This document shows, one piece after another, positions 29,195 to 38,038 of a DNA stretch of 64,000 bases. The notes beneath the pieces were generated by a model, which was not told where the DNA came from, did no database searches, and was given only the letters and a program-made list of their open reading frames with translations. The stretch is from NCBI RefSeq assembly GCF_020514235.1, contig NZ_VTLB01000001.1, forward strand, positions 434,001 through 498,000, written 5' to 3'. The position numbers were made by a program, and so were the translations under genes. The stretch comes from Synechococcus sp. MU1617 (GTDB lineage Bacteria; Cyanobacteriota; Cyanobacteriia; PCC-6307; Cyanobiaceae). Each line of letters begins with the position of its first letter. The first letter of the stretch is position 1.

Positions 29195-30775
29195 TCAGAT
29201 CAGCGTCACCAGGTCAAGGCTGGCACGAGCACGCGTGATCGCTGTGTAGAGCAAACGGCGTTGATGTTCTGCAGCAAGACCATCCTCGAGGGGATCGGGC
29301 CAGAGCACGATCACCCGATCCGCCTCACTGCCCTGGGCCCGATGGATGGTGAGAGCAACTGCGGGCTCCAAACGCCGCAAACGGGCTGGATGCAAACGGC
29401 GCACCTGCGGCTGGCCTTCCGGATCCACCACCTGAAACAACAGGCGTCGTTCAGAGCCGGCCCCGATCACCACCCCGAGGTCGCCATTGGCCAAGCCGAG
29501 TTCCGGTTGATTGCTGCCGCAGATCACCGGCAAGCCGATCGGCCAACGCTCGACCTTGCCCGCGGAATTGGCCCCCAGCAACGTGCGATGCACATCATCA
29601 AGACTCCACGGCCCCCGGCGGCGTGGACAGAGCAACAGGTCCTGCTCCAGAAACGCGAACAAGGCCCGCGACTCCGACATCAAACCCTGCTCGGGGCAGC
29701 GGTCGAGATCAACAGTCAGCTCCTGAAGCTGCTGGAGGCGCTGGATCCAGCGCTGCCGCACCAAGGCCGGAAAACGACGCAGGGGGCTGGGGTGCACTTG
29801 AAGATTGGCCTGCTCAGGCAAGGCGGCCAGATCCACTGCAAAAGCCCGCAGATCCCCCTGGCGAAGCTGTTGAGCCACCTGCGCAAGGGCTCCGCGGTTG
29901 CGGTAGGTGCGCTCGAGATGCACGGCGCCGGCAGCGAAACGGTCGCGCACGTCCGGCTGCTGAAGCCGATGCCAGACCGCTCCACTCCCCACTGGCGGCA
30001 GCTGGGCTGGATCCCCCACCAACAGCAGCCGGCAACTGCTGGGCAACGCCTCCAGCAAGGCCTGGGTCAAGGCCAGATCCAGCATCGACATCTCGTCGAT
30101 CACCAGCAGATCCAGCTCCAAGGGACGCTGTCGATGCCTGCCGAAGCCACGGCTGCCGGCCTCCAACCAGCGGTGAAGGGTGCTGCAGGGCAACGGAGCC
30201 CGCTGTGCCAGCACTGCCTCCCCCAGGCGCCGAGCCGCCTTGCCCGTGGGGGCCGCCAAACCAATGCGTAGGCCTGGATGGCGGGCTTCCGCCCGGGCCA
30301 GAATCTCCACCACCGTGCTGGTTTTACCCGTGCCCGGGCCACCGCTGAGCAGCACAACCGAGGCCTGATCCAGGGCGCGCACGGCGGCGCACTGTTCAGC
30401 GTTGAGACGATCCGACAGCTGGGGATCAACAACCTTGACGGACTTTGGAACGGGAGCTTGGGCCCGCTCTACCAGCTCGGCCACCACCTGCTCCATGGCC
30501 TGCAACCAGCGGCGCCAGCCCAGCCGATCACCCTGAAGCAGCAGGGGGGAGGCATCCCCCTCCAGCCAGCCACTGGCTTGGGCAACGGCCAGCCGTTCCG
30601 GCGTCAGCGCCACCGTCAACTCCCCCTGCTCCAAGGCCAGCACCAAGTCGCGGCTGAGCTCCTCCAATGCGGGGCCATCCGCCTGGGGCGGAATCCGTCG
30701 CCGCAGAGCGGCATGGAGGCCAGCCGAGAAGCTGGAGGGCCAAGAGCTGATTCCCGGGGGCAGAAGCTCTGTCAC
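29195..30775 (-). CDS. recD: exodeoxyribonuclease V alpha subunit RecD
   Basis: 5'-3' helicase subunit of the RecBCD end-resection machine. Walker A is LLSGGPGTGKTSTVVEIL, followed by GLAAPTGKAARRLGEAV, the DEMSMLDLAL Walker B, LVGDPAQLPPVGSG, and the C-terminal VALTIHRAQGSEADRVIVLWP and LLYTAITRARASL. 526 residues, slightly short of E. coli RecD. It overlaps the recB stop by 4 bases. Confidence 0.95.
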   Translation of the reverse strand: MTELLPPGISSWPSSFSAGLHAALRRRIPPQADGPALEELSRDLVLALEQGELTVALTPERLAVAQASGWLEGDASPLLLQGDRLGWRRWLQAMEQVVAELVERAQAPVPKSVKVVDPQLSDRLNAEQCAAVRALDQASVVLLSGGPGTGKTSTVVEILARAEARHPGLRIGLAAPTGKAARRLGEAVLAQRAPLPCSTLHRWLEAGSRGFGRHRQRPLELDLLVIDEMSMLDLALTQALLEALPSSCRLLLVGDPAQLPPVGSGAVWHRLQQPDVRDRFAAGAVHLERTYRNRGALAQVAQQLRQGDLRAFAVDLAALPEQANLQVHPSPLRRFPALVRQRWIQRLQQLQELTVDLDRCPEQGLMSESRALFAFLEQDLLLCPRRRGPWSLDDVHRTLLGANSAGKVERWPIGLPVICGSNQPELGLANGDLGVVIGAGSERRLLFQVVDPEGQPQVRRLHPARLRRLEPAVALTIHRAQGSEADRVIVLWPDPLEDGLAAEHQRRLLYTAITRARASLDLVTLI

Positions 30776-33700
30776 GCCGGCACCTGCCCCAGGGCTCGAT
30801 CCAGGGCTGCGATGCGATTGAGCGACACGGGTTCGACGATGCGCCCAGGCCCGACAGCATCATCTGGAGAGGCAGCTACCGATCCGGGCATCCCCCGCAG
30901 GAAGCAGTAGACGTAGCCGCCCAGATGCTGCTCCGGGTCGTAATCCGGCAGCCGCCAACGCAGATGGCGATGCAAAGCCACCAGGTAGAGGTGAGCCTGA
31001 AGAGGGTAGTGGTGATGCAGCATCTGCTCCTCCATCGCCTCCTGGGAGTAGTGATGCGGACCGCACCGTCCCGGCTCAGCACCGGTGCGCCGTTCACCGA
31101 TCCAATTGCTCTTCCAGTCGAGAACCCACCAGCGCTTCTGCTGGGGGTCCTGGAACACCAGATCGATTGAACCGGTGAGAAAACCGCGGCTGTTGATCGA
31201 GAGCGACGCCAACGCCGGGCTGTAGGAGCGGCCAAAACGGGCCTGGGCATCACAGCCGAAGGCGGCCACCAAATCGGCCGTGCGCACGTGCTGAACCGGC
31301 AGATCAAAACTGAGTTCAGGCAGGCGCTGATGCGGCCCCAGCCGATCCAGAGACAAGGCACCCAGCGGTCCCCCCAGGGGGGTCTGCAACACCTGCTCCA
31401 AACCCATCAACACATCGTTCTGAAGATCGGGATCAAGCCCAGCCCGCCGCAACTCTGCGGCGATCAGATCAAGCCGTTGGCCGGGCTCAGAGGCCTCCGC
31501 CGCAGAAAAGGGGAACTGTTCGAGGATCCGGTGCAGGCAGTCCCCCGCCCCGGCCCCGCGCGGGAAGGCCGCCAGCGGTCCCGTCTCAGCCCATGCCGGT
31601 TCTGCCCCGGCCAAGATCGATTCCTCGGCACCAGGATCGCGATCGCGACCTTGCTCATGGAGCTGAACGTCGTCGGATGAGGCAATCCAGGCCGAGTAGC
31701 TGGCCCTGCCCCAACTCCGATCGATGCGCTTGGGAACCGAACCAAGGGCCAATGGCTCCGCCACCAGCGGAGGCCGCCAGCGCTTTCCGCTGGGCAGGCT
31801 CTCGACCAGGCCATCGATGCTGATCGGAACCTTTCGCGATGCCAAGGCATCGCTCAGCCGCTCATCGGTGAGGCTGTCGATCGCAGCCCCAGCGGCCTCA
31901 GCACCGAACAACCAGGCGGGCAAGGGGGAATCCTCCTGGCCGTTGGCCCTGGCCCAGATCAGAATCAACTGGGATTGGGCTCGGGTCACCGCGACATAGG
32001 CCAGCCGCTCGGCCTCGGCCGCAATCTCCTGCTGCGCCTGTTGCGCCGCCTGCCAGCCCTCCCCCCAGTGAACATCCACCCGCACCAGGCACTCCCCGGA
32101 GCGGGGGTCACGCCAGAGCGGACCGGACACAGCTGGGGGGGACTGCCAGAGGTAGGGGCAGATCACCACCGGATATTCCAGACCCTTGCTGCGGTGGATG
32201 GTGACCACGGCGATGGCGCTATCGGCCTGATCGCTGTGGGGCTGGCGGGCCTCCGGCACCGGCTGGCTGGGGTGCAACCGCTCCCGCCGCAACCAATCCG
32301 CCGCAGTGGCCACATCCAACCCCTGGCGGTGCATCGCCTCCTGCACCAGCCGCGCCGCCTGCTGCAGATCCCCCAACATCCGTCCCCGTTCCGACAGCCC
32401 CGCCATCTGTTCACCGTTCAGCAGATCGGCCAGGGCCCCGAGCAGGCCCAGCCGCGGCATCACCTCAGCCAAACCGCGCAACTGCAGCGCCAGCTGATCC
32501 AGCAGGGCCGGCTCCAGGGCATCGGGCGCGATGTTCATCAATCCCGAGCAAGCCAGCAAACGCAGGCGAGCGTCATCACCCGGTTCCGCCAGGGCATCCA
32601 GGAACCACTGCAACAGCAACGCAGCTTCACTGTCGAGCACATCCCCCTGGGTCACCAGGCGGGTGGGGATCCCGCAGCCCCCCAGGGCGCGCCGCAGGTC
32701 TTCCGCCTGTTGATGGCGACTCACCAGGACACAAAGATCTGCTGGGGTGAGACCCTCCCGTTGCTGCAGTTGATCCAGCACCATCGCGGCGAGCCGCTGG
32801 GGCAGCTCTTCCTCCAGGGCACTGCGGCTGGAGGGCGCCTCGGTGGACAACAGCAGCAGTTGCAATGCCGGGGCGTCCTGAGGTGGGGTGGCGGAGCTGC
32901 AGGACTGCACCGCGGGCACCGGCAGTTCAGATCGGGGGAGACCCGGAGCCATCAACCGGTTCAACCCCTCCATCAGCGGAGCCGTTGTGCGGAAGTTGTC
33001 GAGGAGGTGATCGATCCGCTCCACCCGATCCCGCGCTGCCATGTAGGTGGCCAGATCACCACCACGGAAGCGGTAGATCGCCTGCTTGGGATCACCGACC
33101 ATCAGCAGCAGGTGGCGTTCACCACCACCAAAGGCACGCTGCAACAGGCGCCACTGCACGGGGTCTGTGTCCTGAAACTCATCCACCATCACAGCCCGGT
33201 AGCGCTGTTGCAGGGGGGCAAGCCAGGCAACGTCGCCATCGCAGGGGTCCATAGCGGCCAACAAGCCGCCAAAGGTGATCACACCGCGGCGGCGGCGGCG
33301 GAGGTCCAGCTCCCGCAAGCCCCGTTCCAGCAGGAACTGCCAGGTGCGCTCGATCGGTGCATCCCATAGCGCCGCAACAGCGGCCTGCAGGGCCGGCGTC
33401 ACCAGGCTGGGGTCGGTCTCACCGCACTTGCGCGCGACCTTGCACCAACTGCCGGGGTGGAAGTACTCCTTCAGCGGCTTCTCATGGGCTGCAATCTCCA
33501 GCAGCGATGGCACTGCGGTCTGCCCATTCAGCCACTGGTTGATCTGCGCGCAACGATCACTTTTGGGCTTGGCGGAGTAAGGGGTTGTGGCTGCACAACC
33601 CTGGGCTTTCCACTGCTCGGCCGCCTGACGGAACCCGGCATCCAGGGCGACATGCTCCCGCTGCCAGAGCGGCACGAAGTCGTCCCAGAGCTGCGCCAGC

Positions 33701-34380
33701 CAGTGCTCCAGCTGTGGGGCGAGGGACTGGTCCAGATCGATCGCCCCATCACCGGCCCGGAACCGCGGCTGCTGTTGGCCATCGAGTTGCGCCAGCCCTC
33801 TGCGCAAGGTCTGGGGCGAGAGGCCACGTTGACGCAACGCCTTGAGCTGATCCGGCGGCAGGCTATGCAGCTCCTGTAGCCAGAGGTCCTGCACCACCTC
33901 GGATTGGAGCGCGGTGGCGTCAGTGTCCAGCTGAGGCTCCATCGCCGCAGCGTTGCTGAGGGCCAGACGTCGAAGACTCCGGCGGCAAAAGCCGTGGATG
34001 GTGGTGATGTCGGCCCGGTCCAACTGCTCCAGGGCCACCAGCAAGCGCCGAATCCACCGCTGACGCGCCTCCCCTGGCTCGGAACCCGCCAGCCACTCCG
34101 CCAGGACGGGGTCCGGGGCAACAGCCTCCATACCCTCCTCCAGCTGTTCGAGTCCCTGCAACGCCTGTTGCAGCCGCTGGCCGATGCGGGAGCGCAGCTC
34201 TTCGGCCGCTGCATCGGTGAAGGTCACCACCAACAAGGCCTCGAGGGCGTGGTCGGCCTCCGTGATCAGCCGCAGGCAGAGATGCGCCAGGGCGAATGTT
34301 TTGCCGGTGCCAGCGCTGGCCTCAAGCAGGCGGACCCCAGGGCCGAGGGGGTAGGTGTTGGCATCGAAGCGCTGGGCCAT
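30772..34380 (-). CDS. recB: exodeoxyribonuclease V beta subunit RecB
   Basis: 3'-5' helicase and nuclease subunit of RecBCD. UvrD-like helicase with Walker A RLLEASAGTGKTFALAHL, DEFQDTDPVQWRLLQRAF, the 1B insert, VVTIHRSKGLEYPVVICP and YVAVTRAQSQL. The C-terminal nuclease domain has GDCLHRILE, the SIDLVF and WVLDWKSNW motifs (catalytic Asp-x-Lys). The start is taken as the ATG at 34380 (MAQRFDANTYPLGPGVRLLE), which matches the family N-terminus; an in-frame ATG at 34428 adds 16 residues. About 1200 residues. Confidence 0.95.
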   Translation of the reverse strand: MAQRFDANTYPLGPGVRLLEASAGTGKTFALAHLCLRLITEADHALEALLVVTFTDAAAEELRSRIGQRLQQALQGLEQLEEGMEAVAPDPVLAEWLAGSEPGEARQRWIRRLLVALEQLDRADITTIHGFCRRSLRRLALSNAAAMEPQLDTDATALQSEVVQDLWLQELHSLPPDQLKALRQRGLSPQTLRRGLAQLDGQQQPRFRAGDGAIDLDQSLAPQLEHWLAQLWDDFVPLWQREHVALDAGFRQAAEQWKAQGCAATTPYSAKPKSDRCAQINQWLNGQTAVPSLLEIAAHEKPLKEYFHPGSWCKVARKCGETDPSLVTPALQAAVAALWDAPIERTWQFLLERGLRELDLRRRRRGVITFGGLLAAMDPCDGDVAWLAPLQQRYRAVMVDEFQDTDPVQWRLLQRAFGGGERHLLLMVGDPKQAIYRFRGGDLATYMAARDRVERIDHLLDNFRTTAPLMEGLNRLMAPGLPRSELPVPAVQSCSSATPPQDAPALQLLLLSTEAPSSRSALEEELPQRLAAMVLDQLQQREGLTPADLCVLVSRHQQAEDLRRALGGCGIPTRLVTQGDVLDSEAALLLQWFLDALAEPGDDARLRLLACSGLMNIAPDALEPALLDQLALQLRGLAEVMPRLGLLGALADLLNGEQMAGLSERGRMLGDLQQAARLVQEAMHRQGLDVATAADWLRRERLHPSQPVPEARQPHSDQADSAIAVVTIHRSKGLEYPVVICPYLWQSPPAVSGPLWRDPRSGECLVRVDVHWGEGWQAAQQAQQEIAAEAERLAYVAVTRAQSQLILIWARANGQEDSPLPAWLFGAEAAGAAIDSLTDERLSDALASRKVPISIDGLVESLPSGKRWRPPLVAEPLALGSVPKRIDRSWGRASYSAWIASSDDVQLHEQGRDRDPGAEESILAGAEPAWAETGPLAAFPRGAGAGDCLHRILEQFPFSAAEASEPGQRLDLIAAELRRAGLDPDLQNDVLMGLEQVLQTPLGGPLGALSLDRLGPHQRLPELSFDLPVQHVRTADLVAAFGCDAQARFGRSYSPALASLSINSRGFLTGSIDLVFQDPQQKRWWVLDWKSNWIGERRTGAEPGRCGPHHYSQEAMEEQMLHHHYPLQAHLYLVALHRHLRWRLPDYDPEQHLGGYVYCFLRGMPGSVAASPDDAVGPGRIVEPVSLNRIAALDRALGQVPA

Positions 34381-34426
34381 GGATGGAGTCTGCTCAACTC
34401 CGCCCTCAAAACCAGTGTTAACTTCC

Positions 34427-34495
34427 ATGAAGCAGCCGGAGAAAGCTGCGAACTGGACTGGGTGCAGTCACACCCCAGAACAGAAGACGACCTGA
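34427..34495 (+). CDS. 22-residue micro-ORF opposite the recB start
   Basis: ATG frame reading MKQPEKAANWTGCSHTPEQK then TT and stop; the stop is one base before a strong terminator stem. Its ATG shares the CATG palindrome with the minus-strand ATG at 34428. No good ribosome site is seen, so it may equally be part of a non-coding RNA. Confidence 0.3.
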   Translation: MKQPEKAANWTGCSHTPEQKTT

Positions 34496-34524
34496 GCGAG
34501 GGCCTGAAGAACCCTCGCTTTTTT
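34495..34524 (+). terminator. intrinsic terminator, plus strand
   Basis: Eight-base-pair stem AGCGAGGG / CCCTCGCT with a 9-base loop, then six T. It is a textbook Rho-independent terminator pointing rightwards, between the 5' end of recB and the small plus-strand gene. Confidence 0.8.
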
Positions 34525-34532
34525 GTGGGCTT

Positions 34533-34796
34533 GTGAACGGATGCAACCCAACCCTTGAGAGAACAGGGGCTTGCGATGTTGCCGTGCCATCAGGCCAACA
34601 CGTTGTGGGAAGCCACCGGCCTGTTGTGTCCCACGAACGTCGTCAGAAATTGGCCCAGCTGCTGGTGCGAAAGGCAGCCGCTGTTGAAAGCATCAACCAA
34701 GAACATCGGGCCTACTTCTTTCGCCGTCAGGCAGGCGAGCCCGCGGTGATTTCCAACGAACGCATGCGCGAAATGCTGGACGAGTTGTTCGACTAA
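34533..34796 (+). CDS. small hypothetical protein
   Basis: Up to 87 residues from the GTG at 34533. The well-formed part is HERRQKLAQLLVRKAAAVES through FFRRQAGEPAVISNERMREM, helical and charged, ending DELFD. The Cys-rich first 30 residues look less protein-like, so the real start may be a GTG at 34626 (giving 56 residues). It sits on the opposite strand inside the recC-recB-recD run and its last 4 bases overlap the recC end. Function unknown. Confidence 0.55.
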   Translation: MNGCNPTLERTGACDVAVPSGQHVVGSHRPVVSHERRQKLAQLLVRKAAAVESINQEHRAYFFRRQAGEPAVISNERMREMLDELFD

Positions 34797-37700
34797 CGCA
34801 GCTGCGCCAGAAGGGGGCCGTACAGCAGCTGACACGCCTCCTGGAATCCGGCCTGATCCATCAGTTGCTCCGCAGCGATCTCCGCACCGAAGCAGAGCTG
34901 CATCACCGGTGTCGCCCCTTCGTCTTGCCAGGTCTTGCGGAAGTCCTGCTCCCCGGTCCCCGGTTTGCGCCGGTCTTTGACCACCATCTGCCAGCCGCTC
35001 TTCGGGGGGACCGGCCAGCAGCGCTCCAGCCCCTGCTGCGCCAGCCGCACCAGCTGCTGCAACTGGTCTTCGGCTTCAACCGTCGGCAAGGCCGTCCAGC
35101 GCAAGTGCACCTCGGCGCCGGCCACCCGGGTGCTGCGCGCCACCACAGCTGAACCGGCGCCTGGAGCCAATCCTTCGGCGCACAGCAACAGGTGCTGTAA
35201 CCAGCCGCGCATCACCGCCGCGGCAGTAAGCATGCCGGGCTGCACCACCACCTGGGTGTCACCGGCGTAAAGCAGGGGCATCGGCAGGCCGCCGAGCACA
35301 GGCACCTCCCGCCGGCAGGGACCGAGCGATGCCAGCTGCCGTTGCAGGGCCTGCCAACGCCGCTGCAGTTCCTCCTGCTCAAGGGCCGCGCCAGCCCCCG
35401 CCGGCAACACACCCTGGCCCGCCAGCGACGCCGTCCAATCAGGCGCCGATCCAACAATGAATTGCTCCTCAAGCTCGTGGTTGAGCAGCAGATAGCGCTG
35501 CAGACCATCCAACTCGAGCGTCTCAAGATCCTCCACTGCCTCAATGCCTTCCCCAGGCCGCAACCCCCGCGCCTGCAACCAGGCCTTCTGGGGCTGCTGC
35601 ATCCAGGCCAGCAACGCTTCAGGATCCAGGGCTAGATCGTCTCCATCACGTCCCTCGGCCTCGTCATCGATCGTGTCCTCCTGCCAGAGCGATGCCCAGG
35701 CCAGCCCTTGGGCATCCTGGGCCGATGCCGGAGCACGATCCAGGCAGCGCCGGGCGTCCAGCTGGCGCCGATCACAGCTGAGCGGTGCGTTGGGCTGGAA
35801 ATTCTCACGGGAGAGAGGGTTGGCCGCCGGCGTGATCAACAACCCCTCCATGGACGCGCCGGCCCGTTGCAACTGCTCCTGCAGCACGGCAAGCCACTGT
35901 TCAACCGGCGCAGCAGGTGGCTGGGGCTCACCGGTGCGCTCCAGCCGCCCGCACCAGCTGATCAGCAGATGACGGCGTGCCGACATCAAGGCCTCCAGCA
36001 GCACGTAGCGGTCCTGATCGCTGCTGCGGGGATCCCCCAGTCGCCGTTGCTGCTCGAGCAGATGAAAGCCAGGGCGGCGGCTTGGGCGCGGGAAGTCGGC
36101 GCTGTCGAGGCCCATCAAGACCACCACCTTGTGGGGAATCGCCCGCATCGGCTCCAGGGCACTGATGGTGAGTGCGCCACTGCGGTGCCCAAAGCGGCCG
36201 CTGTCCACCGACAAGGCCTCCTGCAGCACCTCCAAGGCCACGGCAGCGTCGAGATCCAGGGGGCAGCCATGGGCCCGCAGCCGCCACTCCTCCAGCGCCG
36301 CCGCCCAGCTCTGCGCCTCATCGGCCCAGGCCCCGCCCCCAGCAAACAGCTCCTGCAACAGAGACTGCAGCACCTGCACCCAGCCATGGCACGGCCGGGG
36401 CTGTCGCAGCCGGTCAAGCATGCAGGCCAGACGATCCAGCAGCGTCCACCAACGCACCAGACGATCAGGGTCCAGCTCCTGTTGGAACGGTGCCGCCCCT
36501 GCCGGAGCCAGGCCCGGCTCCACCGGCAGCACCAGCCCCAGCAGCCAACGGTCGAGACACCAACGCAGGCTGTGCATCTCGTCCCCGCCCCGCTCACGGG
36601 CATCCAACCCCCAGCGAAAACCGCTGCGTTGCAGCGTTTGGGTGATCAGCACCGCCTCCTCCGCCGTCAGTCCCTGCTGGCCCTGCAGAGCCGGGTTGGC
36701 CAGGAGACGTTCCAGCCCCGTGGCGGTGAAGCGTGTAGCAGCCAGCTCCAGCAGCGTGAACATCGCCATCGACAACCCCGGACTGCTCTGCTGACTGCGA
36801 TCGGTTAGACGCCAGGGCAAATCAAGACCGATGGCCGCCGTGTCGTTGAACACGGAGCTGAGCAACGGTGCATAGCGCTCAATCTGCGGTGTCATCACCA
36901 GCACGTCGCGTGGCGCGAGATCGGGATCGGCCGCCAGCCACTGCAGGATGCGATCACGCACCAATTGCACCTCCCTCCAAGGCCCCGGTGCCGCCTGAAA
37001 CAGCAGCGACTGATCGCCTGAGGAACGATTCAGCTCAGAGATGCTCTCCGCATCCACCAGCTGCTGCTGAAGCTGATCGAGCAGGGTGGGCTGGCGCTCT
37101 TCCGCCGCGGCGATCTGCAGTGAACCTGCAAACAGATCACCCTCACGTCGCTCCCCCAGCTGCACTTCACCGGAGCCCTCCAGCAACTGCTGAAATTCAG
37201 CGCCCATCCGGCCAAGGACAGCCTCCAAACGCGGTGCCTCCGCCAACCAGCCCCCATCGGGCGGGACCAGCCAGTCATCCCTGAGCGAAGCGCGCCGACT
37301 GCCGCAGCGCTGCCAGAGATCCGGACACGGGGTCAGCAGGTAGATCTCCACCTCCAACAGGCCTGACAAGGCCTGAATTAGATCCACCTGCACCGGCGCC
37401 AGAGCACTGATGCCGAACAGCCGCAGCCGCTGCGGCAGCAGGTCCGGATCAACGTCTCCTCGCCGGAGACGATCGACGGCCTCACGCACCTGCAGACCGA
37501 AGGGAGCTCGGGGCAGCCGTTGGGCCAGCAGTCGCCAGAGCACGGGCTGCCAGTCGTCTTCAGGTCGCGTCCGTTTCCACTGCTCCAGTTGATCGGGGCG
37601 GTAGAGGGCGTAATCGTCCATGGCATCGGCGATGGAGCGCGCCAACTGCCAGCGATCCCGTGTCAACCCCGAGGAGGTTCCTTCACGCTGGGCCAGCCAG

Positions 37701-38038
37701 GCCTGAAGCGGCTGGGCGACGGGCTGATCCAACAGCTCCGGCAGCAGCTCGAGCACAGCCCACACCAGCTGGCCCGCCCGCCATGGATCGTCTTCCTGCG
37801 CGGGGAGATGCAGCACCTGCCGCACGAGCTGCCGCAGGCGACTGCCCGGGAAGGGGAACCGCACCAGGGAACTGATGCCATTGGCTGTGGCCAGCTGTTC
37901 CCCCAACCATCGACTGGTGGGCCAGGTGTTAACCATCACCTCCACCGTCTCCAGGGGCCCCGGCTGCTGCTCGATCAACTGACGGGAGAGCAAGCGAGCC
38001 AGAAATTCAGCCCTGTTGCTTCGGTAAACCCTCAGCAA
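34793..38038 (-). CDS. recC: exodeoxyribonuclease V gamma subunit RecC
   Basis: Chi-recognition and scaffold subunit of RecBCD. 1081 residues with the N-terminal pattern LRVYRSNRAEFLARLLSRQL, MVNTWPTSRWLGEQLA, the dead-helicase segment and LFGISALAPVQVDLIQAL, plus VVLMGLDSADFPRPSRRPGF and RHLLISWCGR. These match RecC. The start lies 7 bases inside the metallophosphatase gene end. Confidence 0.95.
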   Translation of the reverse strand: MLRVYRSNRAEFLARLLSRQLIEQQPGPLETVEVMVNTWPTSRWLGEQLATANGISSLVRFPFPGSRLRQLVRQVLHLPAQEDDPWRAGQLVWAVLELLPELLDQPVAQPLQAWLAQREGTSSGLTRDRWQLARSIADAMDDYALYRPDQLEQWKRTRPEDDWQPVLWRLLAQRLPRAPFGLQVREAVDRLRRGDVDPDLLPQRLRLFGISALAPVQVDLIQALSGLLEVEIYLLTPCPDLWQRCGSRRASLRDDWLVPPDGGWLAEAPRLEAVLGRMGAEFQQLLEGSGEVQLGERREGDLFAGSLQIAAAEERQPTLLDQLQQQLVDAESISELNRSSGDQSLLFQAAPGPWREVQLVRDRILQWLAADPDLAPRDVLVMTPQIERYAPLLSSVFNDTAAIGLDLPWRLTDRSQQSSPGLSMAMFTLLELAATRFTATGLERLLANPALQGQQGLTAEEAVLITQTLQRSGFRWGLDARERGGDEMHSLRWCLDRWLLGLVLPVEPGLAPAGAAPFQQELDPDRLVRWWTLLDRLACMLDRLRQPRPCHGWVQVLQSLLQELFAGGGAWADEAQSWAAALEEWRLRAHGCPLDLDAAVALEVLQEALSVDSGRFGHRSGALTISALEPMRAIPHKVVVLMGLDSADFPRPSRRPGFHLLEQQRRLGDPRSSDQDRYVLLEALMSARRHLLISWCGRLERTGEPQPPAAPVEQWLAVLQEQLQRAGASMEGLLITPAANPLSRENFQPNAPLSCDRRQLDARRCLDRAPASAQDAQGLAWASLWQEDTIDDEAEGRDGDDLALDPEALLAWMQQPQKAWLQARGLRPGEGIEAVEDLETLELDGLQRYLLLNHELEEQFIVGSAPDWTASLAGQGVLPAGAGAALEQEELQRRWQALQRQLASLGPCRREVPVLGGLPMPLLYAGDTQVVVQPGMLTAAAVMRGWLQHLLLCAEGLAPGAGSAVVARSTRVAGAEVHLRWTALPTVEAEDQLQQLVRLAQQGLERCWPVPPKSGWQMVVKDRRKPGTGEQDFRKTWQDEGATPVMQLCFGAEIAAEQLMDQAGFQEACQLLYGPLLAQLR

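Follow-up and report, generated by a model that had tools for sequence, protein, structure and literature searches.

A predicted small RNA gene between recC and recB of Synechococcus sp. MU1617 and its relatives at other loci

Small RNA (sRNA) families that are dispersed over non-syntenic loci are already known in marine picocyanobacteria, as exemplified by Yfr2-5, structured sRNAs of 89-95 nt that occur in marine Synechococcus and Prochlorococcus at widely separated loci with no constant gene neighbours (PMC1242208). Yfr1, of 54-57 nt, is located between guaB and trxA (PMC1242208) and carries a motif containing UCCU that is left unpaired between two stem-loops (PMC6778093), and Yfr103 has a length of 290-328 nt in Synechococcus CC9605 (PMC5069720).

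The interval between recC and recB

The window is the whole stretch of 64,000 nucleotides of Synechococcus sp. MU1617 that was analysed (contig NZ_VTLB01000001.1, positions 434,001 to 498,000), and 34 genomes of its genus were compared. It contains a minus-strand run of three genes that we take to be recC (34793-38038), recB (30772-34380) and recD (29195-30775), following the initial annotation and the character of the protein sequences. Approximately 410 bases separate recC and recB, and plus-strand features lie inside this interval. A genome search retrieved a 181-bp stretch at 88-97% identity from 12 other genomes of the genus, which share the same locus (13 genomes including the window), and the position and orientation of the element were constant across these 13 genomes. 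A possible recB start had been noted at 34428, where the minus-strand ATG shares a CATG with the ATG of a plus-strand frame. The shared CATG is present, but the recB ATG was lost in 4 of the 13 genomes, one of which was also frameshifted, whereas a start at 34380 was conserved; because of these losses, recB probably begins at 34380, to which we revised its start, judging from this alignment.

Three plus-strand hairpins, the last being a classic terminator that ends at 34524, had been proposed upstream of recB, and both the sequence and the fold bore this out. Hairpin P1 (34432-34449; this and the following features are on the plus strand) pairs GCAGC with GCTGC, and such a 5' hairpin recurs in most of the relatives described below. 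Hairpin P2 (34453-34483) contains an internal loop (GA/AA) and an apical GUCAC segment, and its pairs are changed on both sides across the relatives. It is followed by the unpaired stretch AAGACGACCT (34484-34493), a candidate base-pairing site that contains AAGACG, which appears as AAGACG or AAGACA in all relatives. The intrinsic terminator (34495-34524) consists of an 8-bp stem, a 9-nt loop (CCTGAAGAA) and six T residues, and is indicated by sequence, fold and compensatory changes. Upstream lies an extended -10-like promoter element, TGTTAACTT (34416-34424; TGn-TAnnnT), which is identical before the relative in G011. Reckoned from this -10, the RNA would start at ~34430 and have a length of ~95 nt (34430-34524).

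The plus strand folded with a minimum free energy of -40.7 kcal/mol and a z-score of -3.15, which was equalled in 1 of 200 dinucleotide shuffles. The opposite strand folded about equally well (z -2.8), and a T-run follows the stem on the plus strand only. The terminator at 34524 was missed by a consensus terminator scan because the loop limit of the scan was 8 and the loop here is 9; a consensus promoter scan found none at the element, the -10 being a weak match to the consensus. Regarding the features of a transcription unit, the terminator is clear, and the -10-like element is conserved but weak.

Variable columns were counted segment by segment in the 13 genomes sharing the recB locus. In the unpaired stretch no column varied (0/10), and in the -10 region, which contains TGTTAACTT, one did (1/10), followed by the terminator (6/32), P1 (7/20) and P2 (10/34). 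The recB leader (20/34), the post-terminator stretch (9/13) and the spacer before the downstream small ORF (37/52) were much more variable, the flanking spacers varying at 59-71% of sites. By sequence comparison, what is conserved is a putative RNA gene comprising the extended -10, P1, P2, the invariant AAGACGACCT and the terminator. The initial annotation had suggested an sRNA ending near 34524, and RNA-like conservation, fold and covariation support this as a prediction; we consider it reasonably likely that this is a gene of its own, encoding an sRNA of ~95 nt.

The interval also contains a 56-aa ORF (34626-34796, plus strand) with a GTG start, which overlaps the end of recC. Its variable sites in the 13 genomes were distributed as 12/8/31 over the three codon positions, the signature of a protein gene, and the ORF looks protein-coding on this evidence. 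Homologues were found in the same place in the 13 genomes and at other loci in G011 and G012, and searches of Pfam and PHROGs gave no convincing match. The ORF is preceded by a conserved leader-like motif, GGATGCAAC...CTTGAGAGAACA (34539-34573, plus strand; also as GATGCAAC...TTGAGAGAACA), which is also present upstream of the G011 homologue, away from the G011 RNA.

Relatives at other loci

A first covariance model built from the 13 recB-locus copies picked up, in G027, a second copy that has diverged from them (58.7 bits, E ~1e-14). When this copy was added, five base pairs were changed on both sides (0/500 shuffles), all five coming from this one paralogue. The refined model matched genus members without a recB copy (G010, G011, G016, G019 and G032), and a pattern search added a further relative in G005. 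These relatives have the -10-like sequence, P2, AAGACG or AAGACA, the terminator and mostly P1 in common, and their stem sequences differ; the -10-like sequences lie at similar distances, and the GUCAC apical segment recurs along with the AAGAC motif. Fold z-scores were weak in some relatives despite the same architecture. In a ten-member alignment, 21 cells were changed on both sides (0/500 shuffles) and the covariation score was 0.437 versus 0.164 for shuffled alignments, figures to be taken as indicative, given that MAFFT aligns some stems wrongly and that covariation scores are raised when the sequences are related.

With a third model, the training members were found again and, beyond them, matches were obtained to G006, a second copy in G013, G019, G020 and six genomes belonging to another genus. 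In total, matches occurred in 2 of 59 genera among 400 genomes of the family (E 0.003 or better). The alignment of the distant members is partly uncertain and the weakest matches owe part of their score to the terminator; we treat those in G020 and in the second genus as no more than candidates. The six genomes of the second genus (g34; L147-L152) share a conserved GCGAAAGCAAGACGCGCTGAGAGGGGTTGAGAGCCCTCTC module that adjoins glyQ in two loci and is possibly a distant branch of the RNA family. A separate pattern search for the recB-locus element gave four genuine matches, all in Synechococcus records, and the element is present on a contig of the cultured strain MU1642; three non-cyanobacterial records (L079, L080 and L084) also matched the pattern but were rejected as a misfit to the model.

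Overall, non-syntenic relatives were present in G005, G006, G010, G011, G016, G019 and G032, in addition to the second copies in G013 and G027. The neighbours vary between loci and, in place of recC and recB, include an AbrB-like regulator gene close by in both G005 and G006, a HAD-like hydrolase in G010, sugar ABC transporter genes in G019, and glyQ in two of the second-genus loci; these names were given by inspection, except for the G006 AbrB-like regulator, which was identified by Pfam. In G011, a separate terminator closes the upstream unit ahead of the RNA's own -10, which fits an independent transcription unit.

Alternative readings of the element

The initial annotation had suggested local control of the RecBCD level, with transcription of the element opposing recB initiation. 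In this reading the plus-strand unit would act on recB either as an antisense RNA, pairing with an mRNA that reads through from recC into recB, or through interference of its transcription with the initiation of recB. The unit is head to head with recB, with ~50 nt between its start and the start codon of recB, any read-through mRNA would be complementary to the RNA, and the arrangement is constant over the 13 genomes. However, this reading is weakened because the relatives of the RNA are at unrelated loci and are not found with recB; in addition, recB is kept in genus members that have no RNA there, and the coding sequence of recB lies outside the predicted RNA. We regard local control as unlikely, and the fallback offered at the same time, an unrelated sRNA, is the best reading. 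More generally, position alone is no safe basis for conclusions on how recB is regulated, since the RNA has relatives elsewhere and recB also occurs without it.

The element might instead be the 5' leader, an attenuator or riboswitch, of the 56-aa gene, which is on the same strand ~100 nt downstream and occurs in the same 13 genomes; the presence of a terminator at the end of the element would also suit such a role. This reading is very unlikely, because the small ORF has its own conserved leader motif, retained in G011, where the gene and the RNA copy are on different contigs. Moreover, the genes downstream of the relatives differ, contrary to the conserved linkage expected of a riboswitch or attenuator, and neither an evident anti-terminator pairing nor a match to an Rfam riboswitch was found.

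It is also highly improbable that the relatives are unrelated 3' ends that have only a terminator type of the genus in common. Part of the cross-locus similarity does sit in the terminator, and a different terminator-bearing element (L112-L114) also scored with the models; against this reading stand the covariation of P2, the recurrence of both the AAGAC motif and the apical GUCAC segment, and the presence of -10-like sequences at similar distances. L112-L114 were rejected as family members, having little in common with them beyond the terminator type. They represent a recurrent intergenic element of the genus, as in L113 (G000:C1:395186-395261, minus strand, outside the window), with ACAATGA...CCCCCAGCTCAGAACAGGGGG followed by a GGGAACCCTCCC terminator, and are possibly a second sRNA.

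A micro-gene for a 22-aa peptide is scarcely credible: the open 22-codon frame (34427-34495, plus strand; ATG at 34427-34429, TGA at 34493-34495; MKQPEKAANWTGCSHTPEQKTT) is present as first described, but its start was gone in 4 of the 13 genomes and was GTG in a fifth, two genomes had internal stops, and its variable sites were spread evenly over the codon positions (7/8/5) without third-position bias, which together form a strong argument against a conserved peptide and led us to judge that the frame, refuted as a conserved feature, is not a gene. An overlapping frame (...NFHEAAGESCELDWVQSHPR...) was likewise rejected, with an in-frame TAG in L004 and many replacements in L012 (alignment by eye).

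Proposed action, spread and comparison with known sRNAs

As a free-standing sRNA gene, the element would be transcribed from ~34430, giving an RNA in which two hairpins are followed by the exposed AAGACG motif and the intrinsic terminator; its conservation is that of an RNA and not of a peptide. By analogy with cyanobacterial Yfr-type sRNAs, the RNA would most likely act in trans by base-pairing, with AAGACG between P2 and the terminator as the predicted contact site since it is invariant, exposed and analogous to the Yfr1 motif; it offers a defined motif for testing. A search with the complement of this seed gave no target signal: apart from the gene itself, the genome contained 11 near-matches, versus 45 for the reversed control, which is no enrichment.

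The place of the gene beside recB would be historical, with ~340 bp carrying the RNA and the small ORF having come between recC and recB. Entry into this spot in one subclade is most likely, because in other genus members the segment above recB either runs into recC after a few tens of bases or consists of other sequence that lacks the RNA. We conclude that the location by recB is incidental.

Two of the copies elsewhere lie near integrase genes: the second copy in G027 is at a distance of ~3 kb from a tyrosine integrase gene, which itself runs over the end of the tmRNA gene, and that in G013 is ~4 kb from an integrase-like gene scoring below the Pfam cut-offs. These two copies have promoter and P1 sequence in common, and their locations are consistent with, though not proof of, travel on integrative islands, providing a testable route for the spread of sRNA genes. 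The G027 region itself (L085; G027:C9:28000-47900), in which the integrase gene over the tmRNA gene end is followed by small ORFs and a Glutamine-II riboswitch match, is likely an integrative island. A broader scenario appears very doubtful as a whole: the sRNAs would form a mobile family of marine Synechococcus carried along by integrase-bearing islands, and in one lineage this family would have settled between recC and recB, where it would connect the processing of DNA breaks in the host with the activity of these elements. A phage origin was rejected, as blastn against phages gave no match and viral contigs, when scanned for the pattern, yielded in different scans one match at odds with the model, none, and 59 matches, 0/59 of the last fitting the model.

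The element and five relatives had no match in Rfam 15 at gathering score, or with relaxed E-values, and recB and recC were not mentioned in the literature covered on picocyanobacterial RNAs or metatranscriptomes. The RNA family is apparently unlisted, although a prior description is possible, as the literature coverage was partial; a seemingly unlisted sRNA family is thereby added to organisms with numerous RNA regulators. Like Yfr2-5, the element is short, structured and present at scattered loci, but the GGAAACA repeat in the 5'-hairpin loop of those sRNAs (PMC1242208) is absent from the window RNA and the relatives inspected. With Yfr1 and Yfr10 it has in common a conserved unpaired motif (PMC6778093), located between stem-loops in Yfr1 as AAGACG is here; unlike Yfr1, it has a length of ~95 nt, lies between recC and recB, and contains no UCCU motif in its unpaired stretch. 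Yfr103, found in marine Synechococcus and Prochlorococcus, is likewise a multi-copy structured sRNA (PMC5069720), from which the ~95-nt element is set apart by description, not by sequence, Yfr103 being 290-328 nt long.
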